64,000 nucleotides of DNA from Trebouxia sp. TZW2008. Lineage: Eukaryota; Chlorophyta; Trebouxiophyceae; Trebouxiales; Trebouxiaceae. A program made the translations under genes and the position numbers. The first letter of the stretch is position 1, and each line of letters begins with the position of its first letter. The notes beneath the pieces were generated by a model. It was not told the origin of the DNA. It saw only the letters and a list, made by a program, of their open reading frames with translations, and searched no databases. Below, in pieces: positions 1-55,500 of the stretch. The DNA is taken from assembly GCA_002118135.1 (NCBI GenBank), contig BDIU01000331.1, forward strand, positions 124,596-188,595, read 5' to 3'.

Positions 1-1226
1 GTCGTTGGCTTCAGAGCCAGAGTATACAGCATACGTAACCTGCAGCTCAGTCAAAATCACTCAGTGAGCATGACTCTGAGCGCATGGTTCAGTGAGCTCC
101 AGTCATTGTAAGTGCAACCCGTCACTGCTACATGCCAGGCGCCTGGCACACTAGCTCTGGCTACTCATCATGCTAGGTCACTGGCTTCAGAGCCAAAGCA
201 TGATGCATACATGCCCTGCAGCTCATCCACCATCACTTAGTAAGCATTACTTGGTGAGCATCGCTCAGTGAACAGTTTAGTGAGCATGACTCAGTTGACA
301 TGACCAGTGAGCACCACTCAGCAAAGTCCACTGGGTTTGTCGCTTGCTGTGATGTTTGAACCGGCAGCTGGCCACACATTTCACTGCATGCAAATTTGCT
401 TGGTGAGGCAGGTGTGCAAGCAGTCGTGCTGATTATGAGCAACGGATGCTGGTGACAATCAGTCGCTGGCCAGGGTGAATAATATGCTGTTATTGGCAAT
501 CAGGCCAGGCAGGACTCTTTGAACCCACCAAAAAGCTTGCATGAAGCCAGAAGAGTTTAGAAGCATGTTCACACACCAAAGCCATACTTGATAATTTTCA
601 GCCTGAGCTTTTCGCGACAACTGGCAAGAAATGTATGCGGTGTAGGTGATAAAGTCTGGACATCACCTGCAGAAGTTCTGGCATTTTGTCTGTAATGCCT
701 TTGGCAAGCTTGACTAGCTTGTCATGCAGGTAGCGGGAGTTGGTGTTGAGAGTTTCCAGCTGCTTGGTGACAGCTGCTGTGACCTGCATCAAGCACACAA
801 AAGCTGAGGAGACCAACGGTGCTGATGATACATCCTTAGCAAATGCTGAAAAAGAAGCAAGGTGTCAGGAGGCATTGTGTTACAGACTGCACTATCGTTC
901 GCAGTTGCCATAAGCTGTCGATGCTGTCCAATGACGATGTCTTTGCTTGTTCACGTCAAGACTCGTCAACAGCAGCAGCAGGCTGTGAGCAAGCAACCAG
1001 TTGTCAAGCAGATATAGCTCTGCTCTTTCAGCTTCACCTTGGGATGACAGTGGCCCACATGGGCAACATTGTTGCAGCAGTCTAGGTACTGCCTGCCATC
1101 AGAGTCATATAGGTATTGGCCTTTGCCACGCACTATGTACAGGGGCTCATCAAAGGACAAAGCAGAGTTGGGGCCTATCAAGATAGCTCTTTGTGCAGAC
1201 ACCTCTGCTGTGCTGAGCCCACTTGC
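1..1226 (-). CDS. Ethanolamine-phosphate phospho-lyase-like class III aminotransferase, 5' part
   Basis: PLP-dependent class III aminotransferase fold; the closest family I recognise is AGXT2L/ETNPPL, which breaks O-phosphoethanolamine into acetaldehyde, ammonia and phosphate. Three exons are visible on the minus strand: 1226-1038, 783-667 and 39-1, the last running off the window. All junctions are phase 0 with GT donors and CAG acceptors. Exon 1 encodes GPNSALSFDEPLYIVRGKG and then YLDCCNNVAHVGHCHP, the family's N-terminal signature. Exon 2 encodes LETLNTNSRYLHD. Exon 3 encodes VYSGSEAND, the start of the SGSEAN cofactor-binding loop. The catalytic lysine lies outside the window. The start codon is not resolved: an acceptor at 1227-1228 implies an upstream exon somewhere in 1230-1640. 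A plain alanine-glyoxylate aminotransferase 2 role is the main alternative. Confidence 0.85.
140..215 (-). pseudogene. Decayed tandem copy of phospho-lyase exon 3
   Basis: The first 220 bases contain two related blocks about 175 bp apart. The copy at 39-1 is the intact exon. The copy starting at 215 keeps the CAG acceptor and reads FGSEASDLA where the exon has YSGSEAND, then hits a stop and diverges. It sits in the intron between exons 2 and 3 and cannot replace exon 3. Confidence 0.75.
216..660. other. Intron 2 of the phospho-lyase gene, degenerate CAGTGAGCAT-like short repeats
   Basis: This is intronic on the minus strand. The stretch 240-320 and the matching stretch at 60-100 hold several loose copies of a decamer resembling cagtgagcat. 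I see no other coding signal. An 88-codon open frame here lacks any family similarity and is probably a chance frame. Confidence 0.5.
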
Positions 1227-2112
1227 CTGCAAAACAGAGCAATCGTTCAGCTTTGTTTGGCTGCCTGCTGAGAAGTGACTTCTGTTTCGGCTTGCGCAGA
1301 TCATGAGCGCCAACCTGCGCTATTTGCGAGACTTTGACGTCATGCTTGCTGTTTCCGTTTGCTGAGCCTGGGGTCCGACCGTCGATCTCAGGGCTCATAC
1401 CGTTCTCGCTGGAGTCCAGTTGAGGACCAGCACCTGCGGTGCGCGATGCAGGTATTAGATCGTTTGTGCACGCTTGTTGTATCTTGTTGCGGGACGTCAC
1501 CAAGTTGATCTGTGCACTCACTTGCGCTGCTGCTTGGGTGTGGCATAAGATCAGGATCTGTAGAATATTCCTTGTCTACGAAAGTTGCTGGTGCATCAGC
1601 TGAGCAGTGCTCGCAATCGATGTGAGAAATGCCCAAGACAAATCTGCCAAAATGATGCTTTCGAGGCTGACCGTTCGCGACAGCGGTTCCGACACGATTC
1701 AGAAATTCACCAGTGATAGTCTTGAGTTAACGACTTTTGCTTGCAGATGCAGATACTTCGCCTTTATCGCAGCAAATGGTAAAGCGACTTGTATAGCTTG
1801 CGCAATGACTGCTAACGAGCGACTGTCGCGAAATGGGACCCCTTGCTTGTTTGTAGCTTTGCCTTGACCACAGTACGTAAAACTCTGACTAACAGGCATT
1901 GTCCATTACTAACTCTTACTCATAGCCTCTGTGACCTTGATGCTATGCATGCGCATGCCTGCAAGCCGTGTAGCATGCAAACCTGCGGAACTGCCTTCAC
2001 GCATGGCAAATTAGCGCGTGCGAGTCGTTTTGTGCGTCTGTCACAAGGCCTTACTCCACATCGGCCTTTGCTGTCTGATCCAAGCAGCCTCAGGCAGACA
2101 TGCACTAGAAGC
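1227..2112. promoter_or_regulatory. Divergent intergenic/5' region between the phospho-lyase and FHIT genes
   Basis: This CpG-richer stretch separates two divergent genes and must hold the 5' end of the phospho-lyase (minus) and the FHIT promoter (plus). A possible upstream phospho-lyase exon lies in 1230-1640 but its frame cannot be fixed. Upstream of the FHIT start used here, the same frame stays open to an ATG at 1945. Confidence 0.4.
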
Positions 2113-4218: not shown

Positions 4219-7200
4219 ATGGCAGGGCAGGCAGACCACAGCATGCACAGCGCGCACAGCATGTACAGTATGCACAGCACAGCAGCCTGCAGAGCATATG
4301 TCGGGGAAGCCACTCCAGCAGCTGATGAGTACCACAGTGAGGACTTTGACTGGGAGGATTGGAGGCGGGAAGCAGAAGCGCTGCTTGCGGCTCGCAGCGC
4401 ACAACAGCAGGTGACGCTTGCCTGCCTTGCATGGAATCATGGTAGTGACAATCATGAAGCAGTCTGTGTGATGACTTTGACTTCAAGGACCTGAGGCGGG
4501 AAGCAGAAGCGCTGGTTGCAGCTCACAGTACACAGCAGCAGGTGATGCATGCCTTCCCTTTGCATTTGGTTTTTGATTGATCAATACCTGTGCCCATGCG
4601 AACACGAGGTAGGTAACACGTATGCCTCAGGCTGTTTCTGTAGGCCATACAGCAGGCTCATCCTGTCACCCAAAGGTATGCAGACGATCTCCCTTTGCAC
4701 AGGCAGTGCATACCTTCACATTCCTGTGTCATGCTACAGTAAACTCTCTTTGTAAGGACACTCGATGTAAGGACAATCTCGATGTAGAGACAGCGCCATT
4801 GGTCACCAACCACTGCATTCCGACTGCAATAGTCCTTCTGAGTAAGGACATTTCAATGTAAGGACATATTTGTTGGTTACCAGAGCAGTCGTTACAAAGA
4901 GATTCTACTGTACAACTCTGCTGGCACAGCGCATCAGTGTGCACGAGCAGGTGGTTGGTCTAGCATGGTCAGCTTCAACCAAGCACATGCATAGGATGAA
5001 CTTGACAACATCACATACAACTTGAGAGGCAGTTCAGAGTCAAGGCAGTAAGTTTAGGTCTCAGGGTGTCATGCAGGGCATTGTTGGCCATGCTCCAGCA
5101 GACACGGCAGCGCTGCAAGCCCATGACCCCAGCTTCAACCTCAAACTTGCATCTCTGTCTGCCAATGGTTCCCCAAGCAGCAGTGCAAAGCCGCAGCATT
5201 GCCAGCAGCACCAGCCGCAGCAGCAACAAAAGCAAACACAGCATGAAGAAACAGGTCAGCAGCAGCAGCAACAATGGCAGTGTCAGCGGCAACAGGAGAC
5301 TTGTCAGCAAAAGCAGCATCAGCAGGATCAGCAGCAGGCGGGTGATGACTTGAGCAGGCAGCAGTATGACAAGGGGTGCTGGGAAGCCTTTCATGCGCGT
5401 GACAACGCTACTGCCAGGTTCTACAAGGAGCGCAGGTCAGTTGAGCCTTCTCTCATTCTTGACTCTGTCAGGTGTTGAGCGCTGCCTGGCATTCAGTCCC
5501 TCAAGCGGATGCACACAGATGCATGCAAGCCGTGAGTTGCAGTTGCATGGATGCCAGGTAGCTGAAACGCTGTAGCTGCACGTGTACAGAGGCAATCAGT
5601 CCTTAGCTCAAGACTAAGCCCTTGGATGGACCATCTGCCTCCATCCTACACAAACCTGCCCCATGACGGCCTATTCCTCCCCACTGCCCCCTTCCCGTAG
5701 CAGCCACAGTAGAGACTTCAACCTTCCCTCTTGTGTGCAGATACCTTCTCCTTGAGTTCCTAGCCCTAACAGTTACACACCCACCGCAGCATTTCCTAGA
5801 GATTGGCTGTGGCTGTGACTCATCCCTGCTGCCAGTGCCAAAAGCCAACGCAATGTGTACTGTTACTGGTGATAACCCTCACTTTTGCTATGTGAGTGCA
5901 GGTACTTGCTGCTTGAGTTCCCAGCCCTGACAGTGTCCCAGGCCCCGCAGCATTTCTTAAGATTGGCTGTGGCTGTGGCTCATCACTGCTGCTTGTGCTC
6001 AGGGCAACCCAACCTGTACTATACCTGTCATTCACCCTTGCTTTTGCTGTATGTGTGCAGATACTTGCTGCTTGAGTTCCCAGCCCTCACAGTTACACAG
6101 CCGCCACAACACTTCCTAGAGATCGGCTGTGGCTGTGGCTCATCGCTGCTGCCTGTGTTGAAAGCCAACCCAACCTGTAGTGTGACTGGCACAGACCTCA
6201 GCCCCACAGCTGTGGCCATGTTCAAACAGGCTGCGGTCAAAGCGGGCATAGCAGCAGATCGCTTCAATGGCTGGGCAGCTGACAGCACTCTCTTGGGTGA
6301 CGGCAGCTCTGTTGAAAGCACAGGTGTGGCATCACCAGCAGCGCTGCAATTGTTGCCCATGTGTGATACAAATTGTTTGTGCTTCATGCGTGCCTGCATA
6401 ACTTTTGTATGGCTTGTACAACCTGAGCTAACGTTACACCCATTTGCTTGTGATGTGCCATTGTGCCTCTCTTCAATCGTATTCAAACAATTGCAACTGG
6501 ATTTTGACCACCGTTCCAAACAGATCGACATCAAAGCTCCTGTTCCTATCTCAGGATGCATGCCCTGTAGCATATGCTGGCTGTGTCACAAGCCGCTTGT
6601 GATGTGCAGATTCAGCCAAAGCACATGCTGTGCTGCTCATCTTTACCCTGGCAGCTGTCCATCCCCTTGAGATGCCAGCCATGCTGCAGACTGCTTTCCA
6701 GGTGGGCCCTGCTCAATACTTTGTTTTTTGACACTATTTGTTCTGGCTGATCACTACAACATATGCATGTCTTCTGTAGTATGTTGCTTGCCCTGGTTGC
6801 ATACTTCCTGCAGTTTGTTGCCAGCAATGCATGTTACATATATGCTGGCTTTGAGGTTCTGCTTGTTATTGCCAAACTGCTGATCAATGCCTGCTTTCTG
6901 GTCCGTGTGGCATGCTTATTGGTGCACCGCGCTTGATGATGGTTGCTGGGTATTTGTCCTTTGCTCAATTTGACTTCAGACACCATGTTTGTCTTCTCCA
7001 GTAGGTATGTCAGCTGTTGCAGCTGCACAGCAGGCAGTTTGTGCTGCAAGTGGCTGCAGCGTCAGCAAGCAACTCTCCTACCTTAGCAAAGCCAATAATC
7101 AATCAACACTGGCAAGGTTGCAGTTACGCATGACTTGTGTTTGTGTTTTTTGCAGGCATTGCAGCATGGCGGTCTATTGCTGATCAGAGATCATGGTCTG

Positions 7201-10900: not shown

Positions 10901-13900
10901 AGGTGATCGTGTGCAAGACATGACCTTGCAGCGCTCTATATCCTCTGCTTTGCATGTACCAGATTACCACACAGGCGAGTTGCAGGCCCTCAATGGTCGA
11001 CAGACTGTTGATGAAGTGTTAGGATTGGTCTTAGCGCTGCCAATTCTTATGTAAAATTAGGTGCTGTGATCGAGCACGCGCGCAAAGCCAGAGTGAGAGT
11101 TGCCTAGCAAAAGGCTACAGCTTAAGCCCAGATGTTTGGTGTCTCCACACAAGCCAGTCAGCTTGCAATAACAGTCTACATGATTATGCAGACAGTATGC
11201 TATCAACAGTAAGCCATGACTCACTGCATCAATACATGATGCCATGTGACTGCGTAATGTAAAAGCCCCCTTTGCACAGGCTGTTTGCAAAGTATTCATG
11301 GGTACCAACAACATGTTGCAGTAGTCCTCAGCTACAGAATTCAGCTTCACACTGAGGTTCAGCTTTCTGATGCACGAGTGAGCTTTTGGGATCTCACAGT
11401 ACTTAAATTGGCAGTGCTGCTCAACTGGCCAATGCTCAAGGTGCACATGCTGCATGTCTTTAAGCTTACTCAGAATTATGCTCCTTATTGCACTGCCGTT
11501 GCTCTGACCCAAATCCTGGGGCAGGGGCTTTCGGGTGGCCGGACAGGGCCGCAGAATGGGACACAATGTCATACTGCCCTGGACCTGGTCTATGTTCCTG
11601 TCTTGCTGCTCGCGCACTCATCTCTGCAAAGCACAGATGACTGACAGCAGCTTATATATACACGAGTGTCTTCTGGTTTACACTGCAGAAGCTCTTTCCA
11701 CTTGCTGCTTGTTCACCTCAGATCACCAAAAAGCAAAGGGCAGTCAGAAGAGGACATTGCACAATGTCAATACTGCCTGTCCTACGTATGCCAAGGGGCC
11801 CAGGCCCATGCCCATGCCCCTTGTGCCTTGGCAACTTATACATGCATACATGCTTTCTCCGCCATGGTTCAATCGATATGGTAGACTGCGTCTAAACTGA
11901 CATCTGACCGCGGTTTGCGTCAAATTTACTGCATTGTCACTGATGCAGCCCAGCTTTTGACTGCTCAGAGCGCTGTGACTACATCCTGTTGAGAATTGAG
12001 TCATGTTACACATGAGCGTTGCAAATGCAGCACAAGACAAGAGCAAAGCTCACCGACCTCAAGTTGTTTGTGCTTGCTGTGTTTTATGAGCACTTCCCTG
12101 ACTTTGATCATGCTTGCTTTGCTGTAACAGCAATTCCCTGACTTTGCTTTTTGCAGTGGCGTCAAGAGATGCACGTGAAGATCATTCTTTGCTCAGCAAA
12201 CCAGAGCCCTCACCTAGTTGTGTGTTGTAGTCAGGCGTCTGAGCGCGGCTGTCATTGAGCAGGGGTACTGAGCGGCAGCGAGGGGGTGGGGGCCCAAATC
12301 GGGTACAGGGGGTCTTGAAGCTACCAGGCAGATTGATTGCACTCATCACCGTGTCTTCCTGCATGAGCTCCTGCAACAATTCTGCCGTGTATCAAATGCC
12401 TCACAAGATTAGCGCAAGTGTTGCAGAGCAGGGGCACTGAGCGGCAGCGAGGGGGTGGGGCCTCCAAGCGGGTGCAGGGGGTTTGGAAGCTACCAGGCAG
12501 ATTGATTGCACTCATTGCTGTAGCTTCCTGCATGAGCTCCTGCAACAAGCCTGACACACATCAGATGCTGCACAAGGTTGTAGCCACTCAGGCTTGTTGA
12601 GTTGGCACTAGCAGACCCACAAGTTACATATTGATGCAAGACAGGCGCTAGCCTGTAAACTTTTGCACCCCTGTGTCCCTCACTGCTGCATGTTTGTGCT
12701 GCTGGCACAATAGACTTGGATGCAGGCTTGTGCATTTTGGCAACGGCAGTCGTGTTATGGACACACGCACAAGACTGGCATGCAAATATTAATGCACTGA
12801 GCAAGCTGATACAATGCTGCAGAGCTGGAAATGTGACTCTAAACAGGTAGGCAGCTAATTGTTGACATGCTCGTTGGTGAATGCAAGTAAATGACGCTTA
12901 TGGCAGAACATGTACAGCTCTCACATGATGTTGGTTGCGTGTATCACACATGCACTTGCTCGCAAATGTTGCCCACAGAAGACATAATGTAAAATCAGGA
13001 ACGTCAAATTTAGATTGAGCATTTACCCCTCGGCCTGATTTGGCAGCAGAGAAGGAGTAAGCAGCAGCTTGCTTGGCAATGGCTTCACTGGCAGACTCAG
13101 CCTGGTAAAAGCCAGGTCCTGGCGCATCCTTTGCCTCTTCACCTCTTTCCGTTCTTGACCAAAGCACCTGCACATCATGAATGTCACGACACAGCACAGC
13201 ACAGCACAGCACAGCACAGCACAGCACAGCACAGCACAGCACAGCACAGTTACAACTGACTTTCAGGGCTTGGGTTTTGCTCTGCTGCATGCCTCGCCTA
13301 CAAGCACCAGCCGGCCCAAAGATGAAGCGTATGTACTTGTGAAAGACTGGCAGGCTAGCACGCCCAGACTGGCGCTAGCAACAGAACAGAACATGACACA
13401 GCCAAGTTACAAGTGACCATGAGGGCTTGCTTTTCGCTGTACTACATGCCTTGCCAGCCGGCCTAAAGCTAAAGAGTGGTAATTTGTGCAGGCTGGCATT
13501 GCCCAAGCTGGTGGCAACCCCCTCTAACAACAGAACACCACGTAACGTATCATGACATAGCCAATCTAATCGCCCACCTTTAGAGCTTGGCTTTTGCTCT
13601 GCTGCATGCCTCGTCTGCGTGAAGCAGCTGGCCCAAAGCTGAAGCGTGGGGACTTGTGAAAGACAGGCAAGCTGGCATTGCCTAAGCTAGTGCCTGCTTC
13701 ATACACTGGGCCAGGGCTGAAGTTGCTGGGCCGGTCCCAAGCCCCCTTCAGACGGGCCCCAAACTGCCAGGTGGGTGCATCTCCTAGGGTGTGGGGTATG
13801 CGCCTTCCCTCCTTCTGCCTGCCACATGCATGTATCAGTAATGCTGTATAAAAGGAAGCAGTGACTTTTGCACTTTGCCTCCCTAAAGCCCTTTTCAGGC

Positions 13901-16584
13901 AGGCCCCAAATTGCCAGGTGGGTGCGTCTCCCAGGGTGTGGGGTGTATGCCTTCCCTCCTTCCGCCTGCCACCAATTGCATGTGTGTGAGTTGTGTCATG
14001 ATCGGCAAATGAAATCTGCGTTTGCCTCCTTCAATGTCTGAGCGGCCGGAATTTAACTGCCTGGTGGGTGAGCCTTCTCTAATTGGTATATTGTGTGCCT
14101 TGCCTCTTTCTGCCTGCCAAGTGCATGCAGCAGCTATCTGAAAGTAAATAACGCAAACGGCTAGCAACACTAGGTGATCATGCAGCCATGTAGGTCAAGC
14201 CTATGATTAGAACATACCAGCGCGCATTTTTAGTTGCAAACCTGCGTCTGATTCAGATATACTGGCATCACAGCTGAAGCTCCCTATTCATGGAAGACCA
14301 GACAGGAGCCCAGCCTTCACTGCCATCTGAGACCTGCGAAGGCTTGGTGATGGTGGACAAATTTGGGATGCTGTATGTGCAAGCATTTCAGCATTAGACT
14401 GCCAATGGCCAAGCAGACCAAAGCAGCAGCGTCACATGCAGTTTTCGGGTGCAGCAGTACAGCTGCATGTAAGTTGCAGGAAGCAAGCTGGCACATATGT
14501 ATTGTCTGTAGTGTGATCACTCCTTTGTGTCCGGTGTGCCCTGCAGTGAGTCTCACAGCTGTCACTTGAGGGCCGTTGCAGGCAGCCGGACAGCGCATAC
14601 GATGCAAGTATCTACAGCAGAAGGCTGTACAGGTGGTGACAGGGCTCATTTGTAGGCAGCTGGGCCAGGAAATGCAGTACAAAGCAAGGTGGCCTAACTG
14701 TGTTGGGAGCTGTGGAAGCTGTATGTGAGTTGCATATATGTGCAGTGAAAGACTCGGTGACTGGTGATAGGCCTTCCATGTAGGCAGCTGGGCCATGCGA
14801 TGCAGTGCACAGCAGAGTGGCTTGGCTGTGTTGAGAGATGTAGAATCCGTACGCCAGTTGTGAACATGCGCAAGGAAGGACTTGCTGACTTGCAAACATG
14901 TGCAGGCAAGGAACTGGTGGCTGGTGATAGGGCTTACTTGTAGGCAGCTGGGCCATGCAATGCAGCAGAGTGGCTTGGCTGTGTTGAGAGATGTAGAATC
15001 CGTACGCCAGTTGTGAACATGCGCAAGGAAGGACTTGCTGACTTGCAAGCATGTGCAGGCAAGGAACTAGGGCTGGTGATAGGGCTTACTTGTAGGCAGC
15101 TGGGCCAGGCGATGCAGTGCACAGCAGAGTGGCTTGGCTGTGTTGAGAGCTGTAGAACCTGTACGCAAGTTGCGAACATGCGCAAGCAAAGACCTGCTGA
15201 CTACTTGCAAACATGTGCAGCCAAGGGACTGGCGACTGGTGATAGGGCTTACTTGTAGGCAGCTGCGCCAGGAGATGCAGTGCACAGCAGAGTGGCTTGG
15301 TTGTGTTGGGAGATGTAGAATCTGTACGCAAGTTGCGAACATGCGCAAGCAAAGACCTGCTGACTTGCAAACATGTGCAGGCGAGGGACTGGTGACTGGT
15401 GATAGGGCTTACTTGTAGGCAGCTGGGCCAGGCGATGCAGTGCACAGCAGAGTGGCTTGGCTGTGTTGAGAGCTGTAGAATCTGTGAGGCTCGTCTCGGC
15501 TGCCGACGCCAAAAGTGCCTTCGCCATGCGGACTGTGCCGCACAGCAGCCTGCAGCAACAACAATTTCATGAAACACAAACTTCATGAGCATGCAGACCC
15601 ACTGCCCCTGTGACTTCATGAACAAATGATTGCATACCGAGACTTCACTGTCCGCCTCAAACATGTCCCTGCAGACATGCATGCATCAGACTTGAACACA
15701 ATATTGCAATGCATGCACATGCAGGCTTGCAGCAGGGAAGATATGACATCCTCAACAGGCTTGTGTAAATAGATACGGCAGCGATCAGCTCGCGGCGTTG
15801 TCAATGTTTGCAAGAGCAGCAAACAGTCAGAATGCTACATGAGACTTTGCCCAGCAGTCACTAGTCAAGGCAAGTTTGCCAAACAGCTGCCATGGCAGAA
15901 TCATTGCGGCAGCTTGGCACATGGCTGAATGCAAGACGCCTTTCTGTGCAGCAGAATTTAGCTCAAACAGCAGAGTTCCTGCGATTATTGATACACTGTG
16001 GCAAAATATGTTACAAACATTGCATTCAGACTGCTGCTAAGTAGGCTGACGAGCTGCAAACACTGATCAACGTCATGATCTGGTTTTGTCATAACTCAAG
16101 AAGTCTTGTGAAAGCACTACCTTTTCCAGATAGTCATGACCATGGCTGGAATCATAGACAGGGCCTGGTGACTTGGACCTCTCAATTTCATCATGGCGGC
16201 CTTTCAGTGTCCAACTGGGAGGAGTAGTGTAGATCTGTCGGCCAGAATCGCATTCATGCCTTTTCTCCCCACTGTGCACCCAGCAGAACAACAATCAAAC
16301 GTACTTTTCCTCCCACTTCAAAACCAGCAAAACAACAAGCAAAACAAGAAGCAGACATCATTTTCTACTCATTGTGCAGTCAGCAGAACAGCAAGCAAAG
16401 CTCACGCATGTCAAGACAGGCGAGCTTGCCCAATGCATTGATAGCGCTGGCTTTGGAGGGAAAGAGGGACTGTATTGAACAACAAGACTGCACCTGAAAG
16501 AGGATGGTGCAATGTATGCGCCTGGCCCGGGCACACCATGAATTGCTTTGCCGTTCTCAAGAAGTTGTGGAGCTTCAGGGGAGA
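7911..16584 (-). CDS. Multi-repeat STPGR (ODF3/SHIPPO-like) protein
   Basis: Sperm-tail PG-rich repeat protein; known members bind or coat microtubules of cilia and flagella. Exons in transcript order: 16584-16494, 16271-16121, 15549-15413, 13818-13578, 13167-13027, 12370-12214, 11623-11470, 10510-10364, 9642-9494, 8712-8560, 8053-7911. Every junction agrees in phase, giving about 553 residues. About twelve motifs are spread over these exons: VPGPGAY, SPGPVYD, SPGPAAYK, SPGPVYEAG, APGPGFYQ, QTPDYNT, RPGPGQYD, LPGPGTYK, RPGPGAYR, SPGPIYN, SPGPNVN, SPGPCYN. Many are followed by FxFG-type segments such as RFSFGPAASR and SFSFGIGGR. The first exon is missing: 16584 begins with two bases of a split codon. 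Introns hold several decayed exon copies. Confidence 0.9.
8280..8400 (-). repeat. Decayed copy of the STPGR exon at 8712-8560
   Basis: 8300-8360 repeats the segment at 8555-8600 (shared core tctgctgattgatgcagaa against tctgcttattgacgctgaa) about 250 bp downstream in the transcript. It has lost the PG motif and the reading frame. Confidence 0.55.
10598..10700 (-). repeat. Decayed copy of the STPGR exon at 10510-10364
   Basis: Plus-strand ctgaaggctggtgccactgg matches ctgaaggctggagccactgg of the real exon, about 192 bp away. The copy still reads LPGPGT but then runs out of frame. Shorter fragments of the same unit recur near 10800-10850 and 10925-10970. Confidence 0.7.
12410..12565 (-). repeat. 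Near-copy of STPGR exon 12370-12214
   Basis: About 180 bp upstream in the transcript from the real exon. The block repeats the agcggcagcgagggggtgg core and the taccaggcagattgattgc segment with few changes. It still reads NLPGSFQTPCTRLEAPPPRCRSVPLL but lacks the continuation to the TPDYNT motif. It could be a recently duplicated alternative exon. Confidence 0.75.
13190..13249. repeat. (ACAGC)n pentanucleotide microsatellite
   Basis: About twelve uninterrupted five-base units of acagc lie just upstream, in transcript terms, of the STPGR exon that begins at 13167. The tract contains CAG in every unit, so it forms a run of potential acceptor sites before the real one at 13168-13170. Confidence 0.95.
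13255..13570 (-). repeat. Two decayed copies of the STPGR exon 13818-13578
   Basis: Blocks starting near 13262 and 13421 repeat the 3' half of the real exon (its block starts near 13580). All share the gcttg(g/c)(g/t)tttt(c/g)gct core, atgcctcg-like segment and ggcccaaag(c/a)tgaagc-like segment. Step sizes are about 155-160 bp. Both copies have lost the SPGPVYE motif. Confidence 0.75.
13880..14100 (-). repeat. Two further copies of the 5' part of STPGR exon 13818-13578
   Basis: The block at 13884-13975 repeats 13747-13823 closely, with an open frame reading HTLGDAPTWQFGACLK against HTLGDAPTWQFGARLK. The block at 14034-14115 is more diverged. Steps are about 140 bp. Together with the copies on the other side, this exon is flanked by duplicates both upstream and downstream. 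Confidence 0.75.
14640..15412 (-). repeat. Array of five STPGR exon-plus-intron copies
   Basis: Five units follow the intact exon 15549-15413, with the taggcagctg end-mark at about 14653, 14782, 14941, 15093 and 15257; steps are about 130-165 bp. Each contains the SPGPAAYK-coding end and an AA|GTAAGC-type donor. Decay is graded: 15257 has PGAAAY, 15093 is intact, 14941 has a seven-base deletion, 14782 has HGPAAYM, and 14653 has an in-frame stop. If the internal acceptor TACAG is used, a unit becomes a symmetric 69-nt exon of 23 codons that could be included without shifting the frame. Skipping all five joins 15413 to 13818 in frame. Confidence 0.88.
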
Positions 16585-17749: not shown

Positions 17750-20700
17750 ATGCCCGGGACCGGGGCAAACTCCTGCCCGGTCCTTCGCCCAACCAAACTT
17801 CAATTTTCCAAGCCCTTCAAAGAGTTCATGGCCAATTACTTCAAGAAACACCCGGACGTGGCAGTTGTCAAGGTTATTCCCCCCGCAGGCTACGTGCCTC
17901 GAGAGAGTCAGTATCCCAGTGACTTGAAGATTGACGCTCCCATCGAGCAGCGGGTAACGCCGGACCTTTGACCTCTTGTGTATTGTGCATCACCTCCCAT
18001 TGGGTGAGCTAACATGTTGCTTCGCAGGTCCTGTTGCACGACAACAAACCGGGGTACTACGACTGCGTCCTGGTCCAGCAAAAGGTACGCGACTTCCGCT
18101 ATTTGCAAAGCTCTGCCGCTTCTCGTATGAGCTACCTCCGACCTGATGATTGGTGACATGCAGACGCTGACCGTCAAGGAGTTTGAGGATGTCGCAACCG
18201 CGCGTGGCGTGCCCAAGCAAGGTAAAACTGTTCTCGCACTCGGCATGCGCGTCTGGCGTTTCACCGAGAGTGGGCCTGCCACAATACAGACATGCGAAAC
18301 ATCACCTTGCATCAAAGCAGCATTGCGCTAGCTGCTCTCATACATTGCTCTTGCTGCATTGCTTCACTGTGTGATTGCTTTGGTGCATGGTGCAAACAGC
18401 ATATACTAGTCTGAGCTTGGCCATCACCTGCAAGCAAGCCTGCATTCACCCTCAAACTCAACTTTTACTCACGCTCAATCATTGCAGCATCTTCAAGCGG
18501 CCTGTCCTACACTGTTGTCTCATCCTTCTGCACATGTTTCACCATCGGCAAGCAAGCTACATTCATCGCAAAATCCACCCTTGACTTACGCTCATTCGTT
18601 GCAGCATCCTCAAGCGGCCTGTCCTACATTGTAGTGTCATGCGTTGCTTGACCTTCATCAAGTCAGTATCCTGCTGCATTATATCAACAAGCCGAACGCT
18701 GTGTAGGCCGTGGCAGTGAAGAGGATGAGCTCCTCGAGAGGCCATTCTGGAGCTCCATCACGTCCAGGCCCCCATTGTATGGAGCAGACACGCCCCTGAG
18801 CCTGTTTGACAAGAAGCTGGCATTTGGCTGGAACCTGCAAAGCCTAGGGTGTCTACTGTCTCAGTACAATGTGCCAGCCATCCCAGGCGTCACCACTCCC
18901 ATGACGTACTATGGGATGTGGAAGGTATGTTTTCAGTGCAATGCAATGTTGAGCTTCACATTGTGACTGCTTGCCTCTTTGGCTTGATGGGCATTGCACA
19001 ACCACCAGTATATGTGACTGCCTTGGCATAACAGACAGTAAAGTCAAGCATGTATCCTGTGGCATTCTGCAGTCTGGACAGAATATGCAACTTTGTGTGA
19101 TTGTAGACATGTTGGATGCTTACATTACTGCTGCCTATCAGAAAGCAGAGGTTCTGACTGACTTCCTGGCACAGTCAGCTTCATCTGTTTGCATATGCCT
19201 AAGGCTGATGTGTGGTCAGGAGGCAATATCAACCTGACCTTCTTGTTGCGAAGCACATCGTTGGCACTTTACTCATCTGAATGCTGGTGCAGGTCATCAA
19301 TGTCTCCGCCCTGTCATGTGTGGTGCACTCCTGAAGTGGAAACGACCTTTGTGTGAAGCCAACATTTGACTAATGTGCGCAGGCCTTCTTTTCATGGCAT
19401 GTGGAGGATGTGGACCTGCTGTCCATCAACTATCTCCACTATGGCGCATCCAAGGTGCTTCCTTTCATTTGTCAACTCCCAAACATGACTACAAGGCTAC
19501 TCATCCTTCCCTTCTTTCAATCATATGCTTAGTAGCACCAGCAATTTTGCCATTTGTGTTGCCAAGGTGGACACTTGTGGTCTTGGATGCATTGCACCAT
19601 CTTGCTACTGTATGCTCTTCACAATGGTTCAACAAGTTTTGGACAGTCACCTGTGACATGCATAACACAATGACGTCATACACCTCAAGCAAGGCTGTTG
19701 TTTGACCGGGCATCATCCTGACTGCAGATCTGGTATGCTATAGCCCCTGGCGCGTCTCGCAAGAGGTTCGAGGACTTTGCAAGGACTCTGTACCCAAACG
19801 ATGCCAAGAGCTGCAGCAACTTCCTGCGGCATAAGAACGTCATGATCACCCCAAAGCTCATCAGGGATGAGGGAATCCCCATCATTACAGTAAGACCTTT
19901 CTGCCTGTTGTGGTTGTGGCCTTATGCAAGACTTATGCATTTTGTTGACTGCCTGTCACATATAGACCAAAAGGGCGTTTCTTGTCCATGTCATATTGAT
20001 AACGCTAGCCTGTTGCAGACAAGTCTGGAGTGTAGCAGAATATATTCAATGACGCCACTCCTGCATGCTTCATTGCAAGCCATCTTCTGTATGACAGTAT
20101 GGTCAGTCATAGTATCCGAGTCTGTTTTCCCTGCCCTTGTCTGCTCAGCTACATGCAATTTGCAGCAGTGGGTATGCTGCTGCACATCACCTACACTGCC
20201 ACCAAGCTTAAGCGCACAATAGCACCTGATAATGAGCCTGGCGCAGCTGGCAGAAGTGGATTGAATACTGCACACCAGCACAAATTGTCATCTGTTTATG
20301 GGCCTCATGCTTTTTGCAGAGGCTTTGCTATTGCATGATCACATGGCATTGCCACCAGCATCTGCAACCTCTCACATGCATACAAAGCATACATAGCCTA
20401 TACAATACACGTAGCATATTTTTAGCACCTGCTCATATAACATGTCTTTTACCAGCCTGGTGCTCTTTGCTGCAGGTCAAGCAGCATTCAGGTGAGGTCA
20501 CTGTGCTCAATGCTGAGGCCTACCACTCGCACTGCCATCTGCATCAGAAATTTTGCAAACTAATAGCATATATTGCATCTGCAATCTGAATTGCCCACAC
20601 ATGGCATCTACTCAAATGTTTCAAAACTTGTTCACCAACCCAGCGACATATCCTGCAGGTGAAGCAGAATGCTGGCGAGTTCATTGTACTCAATGCTGGG

Positions 20701-23700
20701 GCCTACCATGCCGGATATAACCAAGGCTTCAACTGCGCTGAAGCTGTCAACTTTGCTACTGAGGATTGGATTCCCCTTGGCAAGGAGGCCACGCGGTGTG
20801 ACTGCAGAGCCATGGGAAAGGACGCTGTGTCTGTTGACATGAGGGTGTTCCCTGGATGCGAGGAGTCTTCCTCATCCTCAGATGACTCAGATGGTATGGC
20901 CTGCTCCTTGTGGCTCTGTATGTGCATTGCCAATGACATTGACCTTCTGAGCCTGTGATGCTTTGACACCTGAATCTTTGTTGCTTTAAGACCTGCTGTG
21001 TCTGTGGACATGCGCGTATTGTCGGGCTGTGAGGAGTCATCTTCATCCTCAGATGACTCAGACAGTATGGCCTGCTCCATATGAGCCTGTGAGTTTGGCC
21101 CCCGCCTTGTAGTTTTCTGTTGCTTTTACCCTCAAAGTATGAGGGTTTTGCTGACGAGTCCCTGTAGCTTTAGACATGCTATGTCTGCGGACATGCGGAT
21201 GTTCCTCATGTCTGAAGAGTCTAGAATAGCTGTGAACATTCTTCCAGAATTTTCACACTTGGGGAACACCCGCATGTTGACAGACACAGCAGTTCTCAAA
21301 GCAACAGAGACTCAAAAAGCAGCTTTTGTGGAAAATACGTACACAAAGTCACAAAAGGTGTAGGCCATAGGATGATGATGCTTTGCGTCTTGGTGTATAC
21401 ATGTAAATCTTGGAGACACCAGCTTGCTGGATGTTTGTTGCTTTGCCCCTTGCGTCTCTGTTGCTTTGAGACCTGTTGTGTGAGTGGACATTCGCATGTT
21501 CCTGGGCTGTGAGGAGTCATCTCCCAGCTTGGATGGCTCAGACGGTGTGACCTGCTCCCTGTGTTTCTGTGGGTTTGACATCTGCTTTTTGAGTCTTTGT
21601 CCTGCTCCTTTTGTCTTTATGGGTTTGACGCCAGCTTTTTTAGATTCTGTTGCTATGACATTCAAGTGTTTGATCCTTTGGCTCTTGAGCGTCTGTTGCT
21701 TGGCCTACTGTGTCTGTGGATGTGTGGCTGTTCTAGGGCTGCAACAAATATTGCTTGAGCTTAGATGTCTTTAAGTCATTGGAACTTGAGCAAGACTCCT
21801 CACTGGAACACATGCGCGTTCACAGATACAGCAGGTATCAAAACATCAGAGGTTCAAGAAGCAGGTGTCACAAAAATCATATACGCAGAGGCACTAGGAG
21901 CAGGCCACAGGATGATGATGCCTGTTTGTTGTGTCTTGGTGTATACATCATTCTTTTCTAGTCACCTGCTTCCTGAGTCTATGTTGCTTTGACACCTGAC
22001 TCTCTGTTGCTTCAACATCTGACCGCGGACAAGTGGGTGTTTTGGGGGTGTAAACAGTCTTCCTCAAAGCTCAGATGATGTCTAAGTCAGACTTGGATGC
22101 CATCTGAGCTTTGGAGAAGACTCTTCACACCCTGTGGAAATCCGCATGTCTGTAGACATGGTGCAGAATTCATGACGTGTGGTAGTTGATGAGTTGATCA
22201 AAGTTGTTGTGTGTGATCACAATACGATGTTATCAGAGTTGGAAGTGCATGGTGTGTTACAGGTGATGAGGAGATGGAGGCAGGATCTGATGAAGGTAGC
22301 AGCAATACCCCCAGGCGCCCCCCCTCCAAGCAGGCGCGCAAGAAGGTGGCTCAGAAGCATGGGTAAGCCCTCATGCGTTTGCTGTGTGTGATGCGCACTC
22401 AAGCTTGTTTGCACTTGCGCCTGTTCAGCCAAGCAGATGTGACCAGGTTGCACACAGGTATTGGTAGGCTCCCTCATGCCTTGGTCCACTTGCGTCTATC
22501 ATGTTGCTTGCAACACCATTCCGTCGTAGATGGACGTGTGCTTCATGTTGTGTCAAACTCCAACTAAAATTCACTTCGTCAAAACTGCAAATCAGTGTTG
22601 TCCAGCTGTTATCGGGTACAATTGGCTCCAGGGACATTGCTTGTGTTCTCTGTACACTCAACATTGTCAGCTGGTTCTGCTTCCAGATCTGCCACTGTAA
22701 CATATGCAAGCCATATCAGGACAACATCATACTTAGTCTGCTACCAGATATAGATCATCAGGGTTTTAGGACCAACCCCTGATCTGCACTGCCACAACTT
22801 GTGTATTGGTAAGTTTAGCGCATGTGCAGGGGCAATAGCAAGAGGGGCCCTGGGCGGCCGTGCAAGGCAGCCGTTCCCCCTGACTCAGACTCAGACCACA
22901 GCCAGGCTTCAGGCAACCATTCTAGCAATCTCACGGCCATAAGTCTACGTCTACTTGCTGCAGCTCGTGTTCAGCAGACGTATTGCCTGTGCAGAGCCAT
23001 TGGCAAGCAGGGCTCAACTCTAAGACTGATGACCACAAGCACCAGTCCTGAAGTTAGAGCAATATGCTGCAGCTTTTGTGACAACAGCTTCAATGCTTGT
23101 GCAGGGCCAGTGGCAAGAGGGGCCCAGGCCGACCGCGCAAAGTTGCCCCTCCCCCTGATACTGATACTGACTCGGACCACAGCCAGGCTTCAGGCGGCCA
23201 TGGGAGCAACCTGAAGGCCAGGAATTCCCCTATGAAGGTCAAGGCTTCCAGACAGGTGAGATTCAGGCAGTCAACATACTGTTGAAGTGTTTGTTGTTGC
23301 CCTTTGACACTGACTCAGACCACAGCCAGGCTGCAGGTGACCATGGAAGCAATGTGAAAGCCAGGACTTCTCCTGTGAAGGTCAAGGCCTCCAAACAGGT
23401 AAGCCTTGGGCAGTCTACATTCTGCTGGAAAAGTACACAAGGACATGCTTGGACTGTAATAATTTGACGATTTTAATGCCTTTGTCACGGCCTCCACACA
23501 GGGGATTTTTTGGCAGTCTGGCTTGTTGTTGAAGTGTTTGCTAAGCCAGTGTGACAGTCCCTATGTGTTGGTCAAGGCGCCAGCCTGCAGCTCACAATGC
23601 TGCATCAACATGTAATGTCACACGCACATAAGTATGCAAAATGTCCTCTACGCATGCGCGTCTAGACACGGAAGTCTCCGGCAATGTATGCCCTGATGAA

Positions 23701-30600: not shown

Positions 30601-32501
30601 AAAAGATGCCATACCTATAAGGCCTATAGCAGGAATGACTCCCGGAGCCCCCACATGTGAAAGGGCAGCCAGGTGGCGGGCAGGAACTACTTTTGCAACA
30701 GCTATTGAGACAAAAGGACAGAAAAGATGCCATACCTGTAAGGCCTATAGCAGAAATGACTCCTAGGGCGCCCACGTATGACAGGGCACCCAGGTCAGGT
30801 AGCCAGGTGGTGGGCAGGAACAGCCCTGCTGAAACGCCCATAAGCACCCCATGGGAGGGCAGATTGGTGCGGTTGCCTAATAGCTGTTGCAACAGTAGCT
30901 GCAAGTGGTCGCCCTGCAACAGTGCAGAACATTCAAAATGCTGTTCAGTCAGGCTGAGCAATCGTGACAAGGACAGCTTGATAGTTTGCCAATAGCATTT
31001 GTCAAGATTTCTGATGATGACAGGACAACAGCAAGAAGAGTGCGGAGCTGTTTGTACAGAAAAGGCAAGCATGTGCATTCAGTTCATGAGTCAGCATGCT
31101 CAAGCGCTTGAAAACGCTTGATGATGTAATGCCAGCTGCCTCACGGTTGCTGAGACATGCACAGCAAATCTGGCAATGGAAAACCACAGGATTGGGTCCA
31201 CAGAATACAAGAGCCACATATAAATGCACACACAAAGAAGATATTCAAATGTGTCAGGGTGAGAGGATAGCAATTTCTGAACTGACCTCAAGAATGAAGA
31301 AGAGGGCGCAGGTGCCAATTAGTTCAGTGTACAAAACAGCTGTGATGAACGCTCTGCCCTTGTCACCAAAGGCTGCCTGACCGACGTCTTCATAGCTTTG
31401 CAGCAGGCAGGGAGAGGGTGTCTGCACTATGACAGGTTCCCTATAGATATCCTCGTTGGCACCATCTGCCGGCCCTGGCAGAACTGCTGCTGGTGCATAG
31501 GGTACGTTGGGGTCCCGTAGGCCTTCTTCTGCTATCTGGGTGATAACCAGTTTGTTGCCTGCTGTTGTGTGAATACCTAGGGGGAGTGGGGAAGTCTTTC
31601 TGCAGTAGACTTCCTGGCACTTGACCAGTACCTGCAGACAACGCAAGTGGCTTAGCAAAAAGTTCAGAATGCAATAAGGTGCTGCTAATGTGTTTTTGGA
31701 AACATATTCTGTCTGATCTGATGTATCTGGTCCTTGATATGTCATGTTTATGAAGTAGTTTGAGCCAATATGAGCGATCCTTTGCATGCATGCTCCATGA
31801 CAAATCCATTGCGGCAACAAGGAGATGTGAGCTGACCTTGCCAGTGTAGTTAGTGCTGACCCAGAGTAGCCCAAGCACACCCAGAGTTGCCCAACCACCC
31901 TGCACAGCGCCAGTACGCACATCAGACAATGCGCATCAGAGACAGATGTCTTCATTGTGTGGGTTGGCTGCGCCCACAGCAGGGTGTTGAGCAGTGATGT
32001 CGCTAGTGCCAGCATACCTGTTTCAGAGCATAAGGAATTGAGAGCATGCCTACTCCAAGCATGATGTTCACTGAATTGAACAGAGCCTGCTGGAAAGAAG
32101 AGCCTCCAGCTGCATCACAGACACCTTTGCGTGATCGCGACTGATGCTCTGTTGCACATAGCGCAAGAAGACGCTGTCTCGGGGGGCTCACATTCGACGT
32201 TGGTCTGAGACGGCGCAGTTTCGATGAGAGACTCCTGAAGCAGAGCATTATGCCGCTGCGACTGCTTGGTGTCGACTGATGGCGTGCGACGTCGGATAGC
32301 TGCTGTACGCGGAGGCCGCCCAAGTGTTGCCAGCGTCATCACATTTCGCTTGCTGCTGCTTCTAAGTGAGCGCTGCTCTGTGTGCTGCTGCATGCCTGAG
32401 GTTCTTGCCAGGCGCTTCCATGTGTAGTTGAAAGGCCGATCTCGTTTGAGGCAAGGCGCGCTTCGGCCAGCGCCGGCAACGTTGCTGCTGGTATGTTGCA
32501 T
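27667..32501 (-). CDS. AVT1-like vacuolar amino acid transporter (AAAP family)
   Basis: Multi-pass secondary transporter of the amino acid/auxin permease family; AVT1-type members exchange amino acids and protons at the vacuole. Exons in transcript order: 32501-32192, 32109-32018, 31899-31837, 31631-31287, 30913-30736, 30183-29965, 29328-29156, 27975-27667. All phases agree and give about 562 residues, normal for AVT1. Exon 1 is a hydrophilic cytosolic N terminus. Exon 2 carries the signature FNSVNIMLGVGMLSIPYALK, followed by GGWATLGVLGLLW. Later come YELIGTCALFFILEGDHLQ-like and GLSAFVFSGHAVFPSIYRSM segments, then GYAMYGNKTLEEVTMNLG and a final hydrophobic exon. Substrate cannot be read from sequence. 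The ParA-like gene is divergent upstream. Confidence 0.93.
28722..28850. repeat. Short tandem repeat in the last AVT intron
   Basis: Three copies of a unit of about 57 bp with core tgtactgcttgtgccaca lie in the intron between the last two AVT exons. A shorter repeat of gcctgag(a)aa...gctttgcctg lies at 28415-28500. Confidence 0.8.
29443..29880 (-). repeat. Three decayed copies of AVT exon 30183-29965
   Basis: Copies of the exon's 3' half lie at about 29443-29520, 29540-29640 and 29764-29880; the last keeps the acttacccatgagagct donor region. Cores such as gtccagcatgcacaggtactggctgcggtccttcaggct differ only slightly from the exon in the last copy and increasingly in the others. All are downstream of the real exon. 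The mRNA joins 29965 to 29328 in phase 1. Confidence 0.85.
30508..30700 (-). repeat. Two decayed copies of AVT exon 30913-30736
   Basis: The exon's 3' half (ctataaggcctatagcaggaa-type core with its donor) recurs at about 30598-30700 and 30508-30595, steps near 125 and 95 bp. The nearer copy keeps the donor. Neither has a usable acceptor and frame. Confidence 0.82.
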
Positions 32502-40893: not shown

Positions 40894-41619
40894 GCCAAGC
40901 AAGCAGTCATGGAGGCGGCACGTTTCTCAACCAAAAAAGCAGAGCTGTCTGTAGGGAGTGTGTTTGAGCCGAGTAGCTAGCTGGTTGTGTGTGGGCAGTA
41001 GGATACTGTGGGCGTTGCGTGGTGAACAGGAACAGGGGCATTGTGTCAGGGACTCAGACATTTTGTATCTTGTGCTCATGGCTCATACTGCAATTGAGCC
41101 AGCAATCAGTCATGACAACTTTCTCTCACTTTCCGGTCTGGAGCTTTGTTTGGTCTATGTTACCAGTACTGAGTTGCGCCAGATGAGTGTTAGCCCATTT
41201 CATGTTACAATAGCATTGCCACACTAAGTGCTCATAGCTGTCTCGTGTTGGTGCACTGAAAGCTATATCCAGCTCTGTAGCTACACTAGTACACCAGAAC
41301 TACACATCAATTTATGTCAACTGATAACTCTATGTCACATCTTGGAAGCATACAAGCCTTCAATGTTGGCTGATGCATCATTCGTTCAATATTAGCATAA
41401 CAGGTAACACAACGCAGCATATGCTCAACATACTGGTCCAGCTCCCTAATCTCAAATTGCCGAGCGCAAGTTCTAGCAAAACATTCGTCAGCTGCAGCAC
41501 CAGGGGCTGTTGAGCTGAAGAGCTCATGATCAGTCTGGTGCATGTTAATTTGCATAGACGCTCAACCACCTTGCTTCACATTGAGATTTCCAGTGCACAA
41601 CTGGCAGCAGCACTGATTG
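40894..41619. other. Convergent intergenic region between INO1 and CDC73
   Basis: The two stop codons are 726 bp apart. I see no gene, RNA or repeat; it presumably carries both 3' UTRs. Confidence 0.6.
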
Positions 41620-48093: not shown

Positions 48094-48214
48094 GTCTCCG
48101 TGGCTCAGTTGGTTAGAGCGTCGGTCTCATAACATACAAGCGATAATGGCCTGCTCCGACAGATGTCGGATGTGAGAAATCCGGAGGTCGTGAGTTCGAT
48201 CCTCACCGGGGACA
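48094..48214 (+). tRNA. tRNA-Met(CAT), elongator type, with intron
   Basis: Acceptor stem gtctccg/cggggac (48094-48100 with 48207-48213), D arm gctc-agttggtta-gagc, anticodon loop ctcataa with CAT at 48128-48130, T arm gtgag-ttcgatc-ctcac. An intron of about 47 nt (48132-48178) follows the base 3' to the anticodon, the standard position, and contains a ccgac/gtcgg hairpin. The spliced anticodon arm matches plant elongator tRNA-Met, which also has an intron. CCA is not encoded, as expected for a nuclear gene. Confidence 0.94.
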
Positions 48215-49265: not shown

Positions 49266-49570
49266 GTTCAGATGCGTTTGAGAGTTTGATGAACCTCAAA
49301 CAATCAGCTTGTCAGCTGTGATGCAGTCTTTGCTGTAACACAATTAAAGTGCAGTAGTCAGCAGCTATGCAGTCCTGTACTGTCATGACAAAGCACAGCT
49401 GTCTGATGCGGTTGCAGCTCCAGTACAACTGGGGAAGCATCACAGCCAAGGGCGTTTGAAGTCTGTCATATCAGCCATGCTTTGCAGCTCTGGTCAAGAT
49501 ATGTGTGGCGCAGTTGCGCTCAGCGCACAAGACTTCTACAATGATGCAATCACCACAGCAAATGGCGCAG

Positions 49571-52500: not shown

Positions 52501-55500
52501 CCTCTTGCTGAGCTGTAGTGAATACATACTGGCAATTACACGTCACATCACATTCCAATGCAGTGCTTGACTACTGGCTAAAGTCTGCTAAGAAATTGTG
52601 TGTCAACAGCTTTGCAGCCTTGCAGAAGCTGTTCTGACAGCCGTACAAAGAGAGAGAGTAATGATACATGCTTTAGCCAGCCAACAAGGCTGGTCGCATG
52701 TGCCACATAGTGGCAATGACTATATGTCCGTGAGGTTCAGGCAATCAAACCCTGTTCTTGAGGTGCAACAGGCCATCTCACGTCTCCAAAGCCTCTGCCA
52801 TGAATCAGAGCTCAATCACGATGTTGACCTGCCACCAATCTTTGGAGCACGGACAGGTCAAGATTACACCTGAGCTCTGGAGCATATGCAGAGAATTCAG
52901 ATCCATGCTGCTGAACCTTGAGCCTCAAGTTGTTCAAGAACGCTTCCTGGCATGCTCGTCTGAATGGACAGGAAGTTGTACTGAAATGCTGCAGCAAGGT
53001 AGCAGCTGTTCTTGAACTGAATGAGCCCATCTCAGGCTTCCAAAGCCTCTGCAATGACTCAGAGCTCAAGTGTGATGCTGACCTGCCACCAAATTGCGAA
53101 GTGCTGACAGTTCAACATCGCATTTGAGCTCTGAATCGTTGCAGAGGCCTCACAAGCGTGCTGCTGGACCTAGAGCTAACAGCTTCAAGTCCACACCATC
53201 TCTCCAGGCTCAGGTCAGTCATGACAACAGACACAGCTGGCAAGTCTGCAATATGCCAAAGTTATGCAGCTCGGCAATTAAGATTTGCCAGGCTCTTGCA
53301 ATCAGAACAACTCGGAACACCACCATGAATGACACAGCACAGTGCTCTGACTACACTTCAAGAACCTCACATTGGCATACTGATGTTGAAAGCAGATCAT
53401 ATGGCAACTGGACCACATTTACCTGGTCACGCATAACATCTGAAAGAAAAGCACAAATGACAAATGACAAATACCACACAAACATCGATACATATGACTT
53501 CTCAGGCTGATCAATTGCTCACCTGTACTGTCACTGTGTGGTGGCCGGGAGGCGAAGGTGCTTGAATGACTTCAACGCCAAGAGATGGCTCTCTGGCCAT
53601 TGCTGCTGCTGCCCACTCATGGGCAGCCCTGCATGTTTGTCATGTATCATGATCAATATATGCGCCAGCATTAATGCTAGATGTATGTGGCCCCAGTGCT
53701 CTATCTGCATGCTTGTCCAGTCCCAATATGACACCAAACTGTCTTGCAGTCTCGCTGCTCACACTGCAGCTGACTGCTACAGTACAGACAATCTGTGTGG
53801 CCCCAGATCGGGCCTCTAGTAGAGGTTGAATGGTGTCCTGTGGCGACCCTGTTGGGTTTTGGACAGGACGTTCAACATAAGTGTACATATAAATGTATAG
53901 CTCATGGCCCATTGCCTAAATTGCAGTCTGCACTTGATCAGTACTGAGGACAGGCATAGTGAGTATGTATTTGACAGGCATGGGGCCTGCAGGCATGCAA
54001 ATCTACCGTGACCAATCACAACACCATTTGTACCCTCATGGAGGTGATTGCAATTATGCTTGCATGCTTTCAGCCTAGAAAATGTGCGGTCATGCTTGGG
54101 TGTTTGCGATCACGGCACCACTTGTACCCTTATGCAGCTGATTACTTTTGCGCTTGCGTTCTTGCAGCCTAGAAGGTGTGCGGGCATGCTTGAGTGTTTG
54201 CATCTCAGCGTAAAACAAGCTGGCCTGGCGAGACAATACTCAAACCACACAGATGCAGTACCTGTGACAGCACCTGTCAGAAGGTCATAAGGGGTGCAGA
54301 TTGAATGCGCTTATGACTTGCATCATCATCATATGTTGATGCCATTGGAGCACATGTGATGCCTGACCTGAACGTGGTGCATTTTGTGTTGTCAGCATAG
54401 GTGATGACGCCGCCCTTGTAGTCCGAGACGTCAACAGCCTTGAAAGCCAACTGTGTTACCACCCCAAACAAGGTGCCTCCACCACGCATGGCAGCAAGCA
54501 GGTCTGTGTTGTGAGAAGCATTGGCTGTGACCTGCAGCAAGAATGGGGAAGTACACAACAAAGTGTTGGGGCGATCAGGCGTGAGATGCAATGTTTGTGA
54601 CCTGCAGTGAATTGAGCAAATTTAATGCAGGCAGGTCTGTGTTGTGTGAAGCATTGGCTGTGACCTGCAGTAGATTGAGCAGAATTGCTGCAAGGAGGAC
54701 TTGACAAATGGCAGATGTGTTGGCCATGCCCTGTAGTAGCACGAGCCAATTTCATGCAAGCAGGTCTGTGTTACGGAAGTCATTGGGTGTGACCTGCAGC
54801 AAAATGGGCAAGTCTGACAGTAGGAGGGGTCTATATTCAAGAAACATGTCGGCTTTGTTCTGCAGCAGAATGTGCGCTTTGACACAAGCAGGTCTGTCTT
54901 TTGTGGAGCATTGGCTGTGACCTCTACTGGAATGGGCAGCTTTCAACTGGAGTGACAGCTAACTCAAATGCTCTCAGGTGCACTTGAGAGGACACTTGAA
55001 CACGTTGCAAAGCTCAAGTCTTGGCCACTTGAGAGGTACTGCTTACAAAGTCAAGTCTTTGGTGTGTTAGTTTCACCAAGGGGTTCAAATTGATGTACGC
55101 CTTGCAGCAAATCAGACCCTGCATTTGATGGATGCAAATGCATCTTACGGCAGCAGAGTCAAGCATGGTTGCAGGTATGCATGAGCCCTACAACCGTGTC
55201 CATAAAGATTTGCTCAATACAACCCTGCGTCGGCAGCTGTTCTAGCATCAGCAGTCCATCAAGATCTGTGAAGCAACTTCACTTCATTGGGCGTATGCAT
55301 ACGACCTTCAGCTCAGACACTGTGTGCCAGTCCCTAAATGGAATCGTGCACAATCATGCCAGCTCAAATCCTGTCAAACTGAGAATAGTTCAAGTTGTCC
55401 GTAATCATGCCATCTCAACTTTCTGTGACTCTGAATGCCATTTCAAGCCGTGCAGAATCCTGCCAGCTCAGATGCTGTGACACTGGATATCAGTATTGCA

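Follow-up and report, generated by a model that had tools for sequence, protein, structure and literature searches.

Partial exon copies in the window

We analysed a stretch of 64,000 nucleotides of the green alga Trebouxia sp. TZW2008 (hereafter the window; C309:124596-188595, in a genome of 68.5 Mb in 527 contigs), in which a METTL-like, an STPGR-like, a KDM4-like and an AVT (Aa_trans) gene carry intact exons accompanied by decayed partial copies, or relics, of the same exons (Table 1). Exons were recognised by homology in the METTL-like, KDM4-like and AVT genes. The STPGR-like gene, which bears the family name given to it in a preliminary description of this DNA, is supported here by open-frame continuity. 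In all four genes the copies carry flanking intron and one splice site, as that description had stated. It had also reported decayed exon copies in a phospho-lyase, a Cdc73 and an FAD oxidase gene, where they are unconfirmed: in the phospho-lyase gene the repeat at 6-271 is not demonstrably exonic (the Aminotran_3 piece lies at ~1032-1142, minus strand), nor are the repeats at 43107-44455 in the Cdc73 gene (the CDC73_C exon lies within 41918-42334).

Together with loci outside the window, 19 families of exon-edge copies could be classified, 12 on homology to a protein family or structure and 7 on open-frame continuity. In every one (19/19) the copy lies in the same gene in direct orientation and consists of part of an exon with one splice site, the copied piece running from intron into exon or the reverse; both splice sites of an exon were copied in none (0/19). 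The unit is thus not the exon, and the exon-sized units first proposed are not supported. Copies of exon heads lie upstream of the real exon (10 families) and copies of tails downstream (9). Both sides of an exon do bear copies, as first described, but the choice of side is not free. When a piece running from intron into exon is duplicated in tandem, it is necessarily the downstream copy that stays attached to the remaining exon, and for a piece running from exon into intron it is the upstream one. The rule follows directly from this, and polarity by itself is no evidence of selection. The loci outside the window are an FtsH-like (AAA) gene on C328 with a head and a tail relic, P-type ATPase genes on C318 (head relic) and C87 (tail relic), a DEAD helicase on C85 (head relic of 52 bp, 90% identical, with a 105-bp spacer) and an Aminotran_3 gene on C28 with three upstream copies of an exon head. 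Since C28, C87, C318 and C328 had been chosen for overlapping profile matches, they were used for polarity and not for frequency.

As previously proposed, exons join in phase past the relics in the METTL-like and AVT genes. When the METTL exon is joined to its upstream neighbour, the alignment with METTL6 structures (expectation value E ~1e-6) is gapped elsewhere and never at the joint; for the joined AVT exons, which are in phase, the alignment with a transporter structure is one weak match (E 0.00023), also with gaps elsewhere and none at the joints. The two METTL relics match the exon copy at 84.1% (far) and 83.6% (near) identity and one another at 79%, the pattern expected if constraint acts on the exon but not on the relics. 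In the KDM4-like gene, further weaker copies of the JmjC exon tail reach ~22078, two pairs being inverted.

The largest set of copies is the six-copy exon-tail array of the STPGR-like gene. The donor AA/GTAAGC is kept in 3 of the 5 downstream copies, and in two copies that keep it an acceptor-like TACAG arises just before the exon piece, where intron and exon piece meet. These copies contain two candidate in-phase cassette exons of 69 nt, the second matching the 69 nt of the intact exon save for the first base. All three frames across the joins are open, so openness proves nothing here. If used, the candidate cassettes would add 23 residues apiece to a repeat protein.

Other parts of the window lack repeat clusters. 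No cluster of local direct repeats was found at 30812-43107 or 55000-64000, where the window average predicts ~5.6 and ~4.1. The INO1 exon (39697-40440) lies inside the cluster-free region of ~30.8-43.1 kb, in line with the earlier remark that this gene lacks the pattern. At 48094-48214 (plus strand) there is an Rfam tRNA match of 51 bits, where ARAGORN at its settings reported none; the match spans 121 bases and therefore probably contains a long intron.

Table 1. Exons, relics and related features in the window (window positions; a slash marks the exon/intron boundary)
Feature	Position	Strand	Basis or remark
Open exon tail, donor CAG/GTGACG	4337..4432	+	open-frame continuity; exon ends near 4410
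Downstream relic of exon tail 4337-4432, with donor	4468..4565	+	self-comparison
Two upstream METTL head relics	5732..6030	+	intron tail, 3' splice site and ~115 bp of exon; step ~161 bp
METTL-like intact exon	6061..6323	+	homology to METTL6 structures
STPGR-like region exon head, copy continuing in open frame	12257..12410	-	open-frame continuity
Upstream relic of exon head 12257-12410	12426..12579	-	
Downstream tail relics of exon headed at 13739-13825	13226..13520	-	last one has donor
STPGR-like exon head, open to ~13578	13739..13825	-	open-frame continuity
Upstream relic of head 13739-13825, with 3' splice site	13886..13972	-	
Six-copy STPGR-like exon-tail array	14634..15485	-	5'-most copy (exon end 15413) joined to remaining exon
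Second candidate in-phase 69-nt cassette exon	15090..15158	-	STPGR-like array
Candidate in-phase 69-nt cassette exon	15253..15321	-	STPGR-like array
Upstream relic of JmjC exon head (3' splice site and head)	20470..20525	+	
KDM4-like JmjC intact exon	20659..20893	+	homology
Downstream relic of JmjC exon tail, donor changed	20995..21078	+	
Upstream relic of KRGPGRPRK exon head	22820..22939	+	
KRGPGRPRK-containing exon, KDM4-like region	23105..23255	+	end approximate
Downstream relic of KRGPGRPRK exon tail, donor CAG/GTAAGC	23305..23427	+	
Young tandem duplication	26818..27148	.	unit 164 bp, 98.8% identical, 3-bp junction overlap, no exon recognised
About four downstream relics of AVT tail 29965-30183	29450..29890	-	nearest keeps GG/GTAAGT
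AVT (Aa_trans) intact exon	29965..30183	-	homology
Upstream relic of AVT head 29965-30183	30360..30410	-	by eye, no BLAST cluster, coordinates approximate
Two downstream relics of AVT tail 30736-30913	30502..30700	-	nearest keeps AG/GTATGG
Further AVT intact exon	30736..30913	-	homology

Local direct repeats in the genome

The window was compared with itself (56 pairs at E <= 1e-3, almost all of them direct and at short distance), clusters of repeats being counted at >= 50 bits, and set against stretches from the rest of the genome. Twenty-five stretches of at most 10 kb were fetched, 19 set by contig number and position and six, on contigs already sampled elsewhere, from a list fixed before their content was seen; one contig asked for was too short and yielded none. 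Of these 25, L004 (a stretch of C27) was excluded from the counts, as a GC content of 41.5% and abundant direct and inverted repeats (51 and 17 close pairs) point to a probably organellar origin; L001 and L002, which are pieces of the window, were likewise not counted. L007 was kept minus its 4462 N. The resulting 24 stretches comprise 223,092 known bases and make up, with the window, a sample of 287 kb with 122 clusters.

The window contains 29 clusters of local direct repeats (4.53 per 10 kb) and the 24 stretches 93 (4.17 per 10 kb, with at least one cluster in 20/24), repeats covering 17.4% of the bases of these stretches. Partial duplication is, as had been surmised, a behaviour of the genome at large and not special to the window. 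First-order Markov resampling, performed once each for the window and the first 19 stretches, gave zero pairs at the same threshold. Offsets between copies have a median of 147 bp in the window (quartiles 116.5-185.5) and, taking the smallest offset per cluster, of 145 bp in the 24 stretches (quartiles 119-181). They are compatible with the nucleosome-sized step first suggested, but the match is weak given so broad a distribution. No preference was seen for the offset modulo 3 (45, 40 and 37 over the classes). Among pairs at most 700 bp apart, 238 were direct and 0 inverted in the 24 stretches; the window had 44 direct and 3 inverted. The best identity per cluster in the 24 stretches extends from the 65-70% bin to 97% (quartiles 75, 81 and 86%). 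The youngest event in the window is the duplication at 26818-27148, part of which (27062-27127) has a further match, of 94% identity, at C78:263665-263727.

The repeats might instead stem from a satellite or mobile element family, and 7 of the 122 clusters do resemble other places. In addition, stretch L026 carries at 9059-9158 an element of ~90-100 bp found on both strands at no fewer than about 40 places with 80-91% identity (best 40 of 834 candidates), possibly a short mobile element, for which no Rfam family match was obtained. The other 115 of 122 clusters are locus-unique at 50 bits within the sample, which contradicts this explanation for most of them, and among the matches scored in a genome search the METTL array had no other match and the AVT region (26.0-31.5 kb) only one, of 63 bp. 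We consider such a family highly improbable. An assembly artefact is hardly credible: nothing was found in its favour, divergence is graded, reaching as low as 65-70%, and a relative's contig of different provenance bears a comparable copy of an exon tail (see below).

Placement and origin of the copies

How often would duplications placed without regard to exons meet an exon edge? Units with the observed offsets were dropped at random on 12 hand-picked gene maps with 61 Pfam pieces, leaving out two relic- or overlap-like pieces (C28, C123) and other genes with few pieces. No exon was touched by 62% of the units, 29% included a single splice site, 2% included an exon's two sites and 7% fell wholly inside an exon; 38% thus touched an exon, and one splice site was included about 15 times as often as two. 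In the window, an exon edge was recognised in 11 of the 29 clusters, a lower bound close to the expected 38% (those at 4337, 5732, 12257, 13226, 13739, 14634, 20470, 20824, 22820, 29539 and 30502); 18/29 had no recognised exon. As far as this can be tested on the Pfam exon maps, the relics occur at the rate expected from random tandem duplication, an outcome that the preliminary description had named as refuting its reading. A relic was present in one of nine Pfam exons fetched regardless of relics (L032-L040; top-scoring DEAD/AAA, not a random sample), whose 11.7 kb held no other repeat of >= 40 bits, a density below the 4 per 10 kb of the other stretches. Open reading frames (ORFs) of at least 250 aa were repeat-covered over 4.5% of their length, as compared to 17.3% elsewhere. 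A Pfam scan of 40 ORFs found a family in 6; scans for DEAD, ABC and AAA covered the best 32 of 123, 19 of 185 and 19 of 180 candidates, respectively, and no relic rates were drawn from them. Coding scores trained on long ORFs were rejected for exon annotation as too weak.

The preliminary description had read the relics as a standing supply of spare exons, that is, as the outcome of exon-targeted duplication keeping a working reserve. Several relics retain open frames and splice sites, and the two candidate cassettes of the STPGR-like array would suit such a role; among the loci examined, this array is the only place where that reading would be literally possible. Elsewhere the copied units do not correspond to exons, the classified relics comprise part of an exon and many have decayed, the single splice sites and the share of clusters in contact with exons fit random placement, only one in nine exons bears a relic, and the longest ORFs are depleted of repeats. 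A working reserve is thus very unlikely.

The overall picture is that of random duplication filtered by selection. The explanation we favour, and judge likely, is frequent local duplication in direct orientation, placed regardless of exons, buffered by splicing and followed by decay. The genome would often duplicate local DNA, with copies ~145 bp apart, wherever exons happen to lie. In introns or between genes such events should be close to neutral. Where a duplication straddles an exon edge, the true exon would survive intact on one side while the adjoining intron received a partial copy with its splice site, and the normal message would still be possible if the cell used the outermost sites, giving the shortest exon, as in exon definition. 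Duplications within coding sequence would mostly be purged by selection, and the copies left would later decay. Break repair or a template switch is proposed as their origin. Most relics would then be an unremarkable side effect of active duplication.

Should the intact exons encode the protein, splicing has to settle on the donor lying furthest upstream or the acceptor lying furthest downstream, a shortest-exon choice that would fit exon definition. A stronger version can be formulated, in which duplication is intense and continuing, exon-edge products are tolerated through shortest-exon pairing in the presence of intact decoys, and now and then, as in the STPGR-like array, an exon-intron junction created by duplication yields in-phase cassettes that lengthen a repeat protein; we find it conceivable but doubtful.

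Are the copies truly tandem, as the arrays of the first description implied? The 73 two-copy clusters of the window and the 24 stretches were classed by the ratio of aligned length to offset as contiguous (>= 0.9; 21 clusters), intermediate (16) or spaced (< 0.6; 36), so that the term suits only some of them. Spaced clusters have copies of 55-86 bp and offsets of 131-221 bp (quartiles). An unanchored test detected residual similarity in the missing part of 9 of 42 spaced clusters, for 2.1 expected. With anchored extension, 4 of 44 clusters reached the 10% level, no more than the 4.4 expected, but this test is biased because the BLAST alignment had already stopped there. Two contiguous young events have junction overlaps of 3 and 5 bp, too few for a conclusion on microhomology.

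Local templated insertion, in which repair inserts 40-100 bp copied from ~150 bp away together with a spacer, would produce spaced copies directly and could act beside tandem duplication. The spaced clusters, with offsets in the same range, and the C85 relic with its spacer speak for it. It is at odds with the contiguous clusters and with several homology-checked exon relics that span most of the unit; moreover, the polarity (19/19) is unexpected for insertion at random sides and counts against it. We regard a contribution of this kind as plausible, though we would not count on it. Decay explains some spaced clusters; templated insertion may explain others.

Several observations weigh against duplication, buffering and decay as the full account. 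Given the share of spaced clusters and the few with residual similarity, plain tandem duplication followed by decay cannot explain all of them, and some spaced clusters are young, at 91-97% identity (for instance a 69-bp match of 95.7% at offset 142 and a 68-bp match of 91% at offset 162). Two of the three inverted pairs in the window (located at 20971-21502 and 52791-53148) are copies of the KDM4-like exon-tail region. The METTL array shows no age gradient, its far and near relics being about equally diverged (84.1% and 83.6%). The polarity is partly built in, the 'real' copy having been defined by its continuity with the remaining exon. Finally, the ORFs used for depletion are not proven exons, and with length cut-offs of 150 and 200 aa the depletion is mild (11.6 and 12.9% covered, versus 17.8 and 16.8% elsewhere). 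A conveyor-belt ageing of the copies was considered and dropped: AVT relics worsen with distance, as judged by eye, and METTL relics do not.

Searches at the protein level yielded 95 relatives for AVT and 71 for METTL, many on environmental contigs. One of them, P0002 on a public contig, is 96% identical across 42% of the query; 43 residues (129 bp) downstream of its AVT exon tail it bears a copy of that tail in frame, the spacing in the window being 188 bp. This copy agrees with its own exon at 17/19 residues and with the window relic at 13/19 (by eye). Since P0002 carries its own copy at another spacing, the duplication process also acts in a relative, and this one clear case suggests repeated, lineage-specific duplication events. 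Direct alignment of 239 flanks of relatives, a method that sees in-frame stop-free copies only, flagged 3, of which P0002 alone was convincing. BLAST-based internal-repeat searches of the relatives' proteins returned none, although P0002 has a clear one.

Implications and comparison with known systems

If the density holds, the genome would contain ~28,600 clusters (4.17 per 10 kb over 68.5 Mb) and would be a convenient system for measuring short duplication in a natural genome. It would also allow intron growth from exon debris to be studied and offer natural tests of exon versus intron definition, an intact relic site being a near-identical decoy ~100-200 bp from the true one. Gene finders should be used with care, as a relic with an open frame and good splice sites may be called as an exon. 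Among the open-licence literature searched, no title or abstract opening described such a pattern for an alga. The likely mechanism is ordinary; its abundance, judged on this genome alone, is apparently unusual.

Internal gene duplication refers to partial duplications within genes, some of which alter exon-intron structure. The copies described here are alike in being partial and within genes; they occur at about 4 clusters per 10 kb, many of them known only in decayed form. Where tandem exon duplication leads to mutually exclusive splicing, an entire exon is duplicated together with its two splice sites. Neighbouring exon copies are a common trait, whereas here no family (0/19) copies both sites, save for the junction-made acceptors of the STPGR-like array. 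Dispersed elements and satellites, introners included, differ from these mostly locus-unique repeats, the exceptions being the 7 of 122 clusters mentioned above.

Intron gain by tandem duplication is known (PMC4974935, PMC3443670). In one described case, the duplicated piece likewise crosses one intron-exon edge with its splice site; that case had a new intron, while here many loci are concerned, mostly as relics and known from genomic sequence. The tandem genomic duplication model, as presented in PMC3443670, also involves a tandem segment: an AGGT inside an exon makes new splice sites available, whereas here the copy takes along one splice site that already existed. Work on mouse and human cells has described how breaks with 3' overhangs give rise to small tandem duplications, with CST-Pol alpha involved (PMC8355091). 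A process of this kind may be one origin of the short direct tandem duplications seen in this alga.

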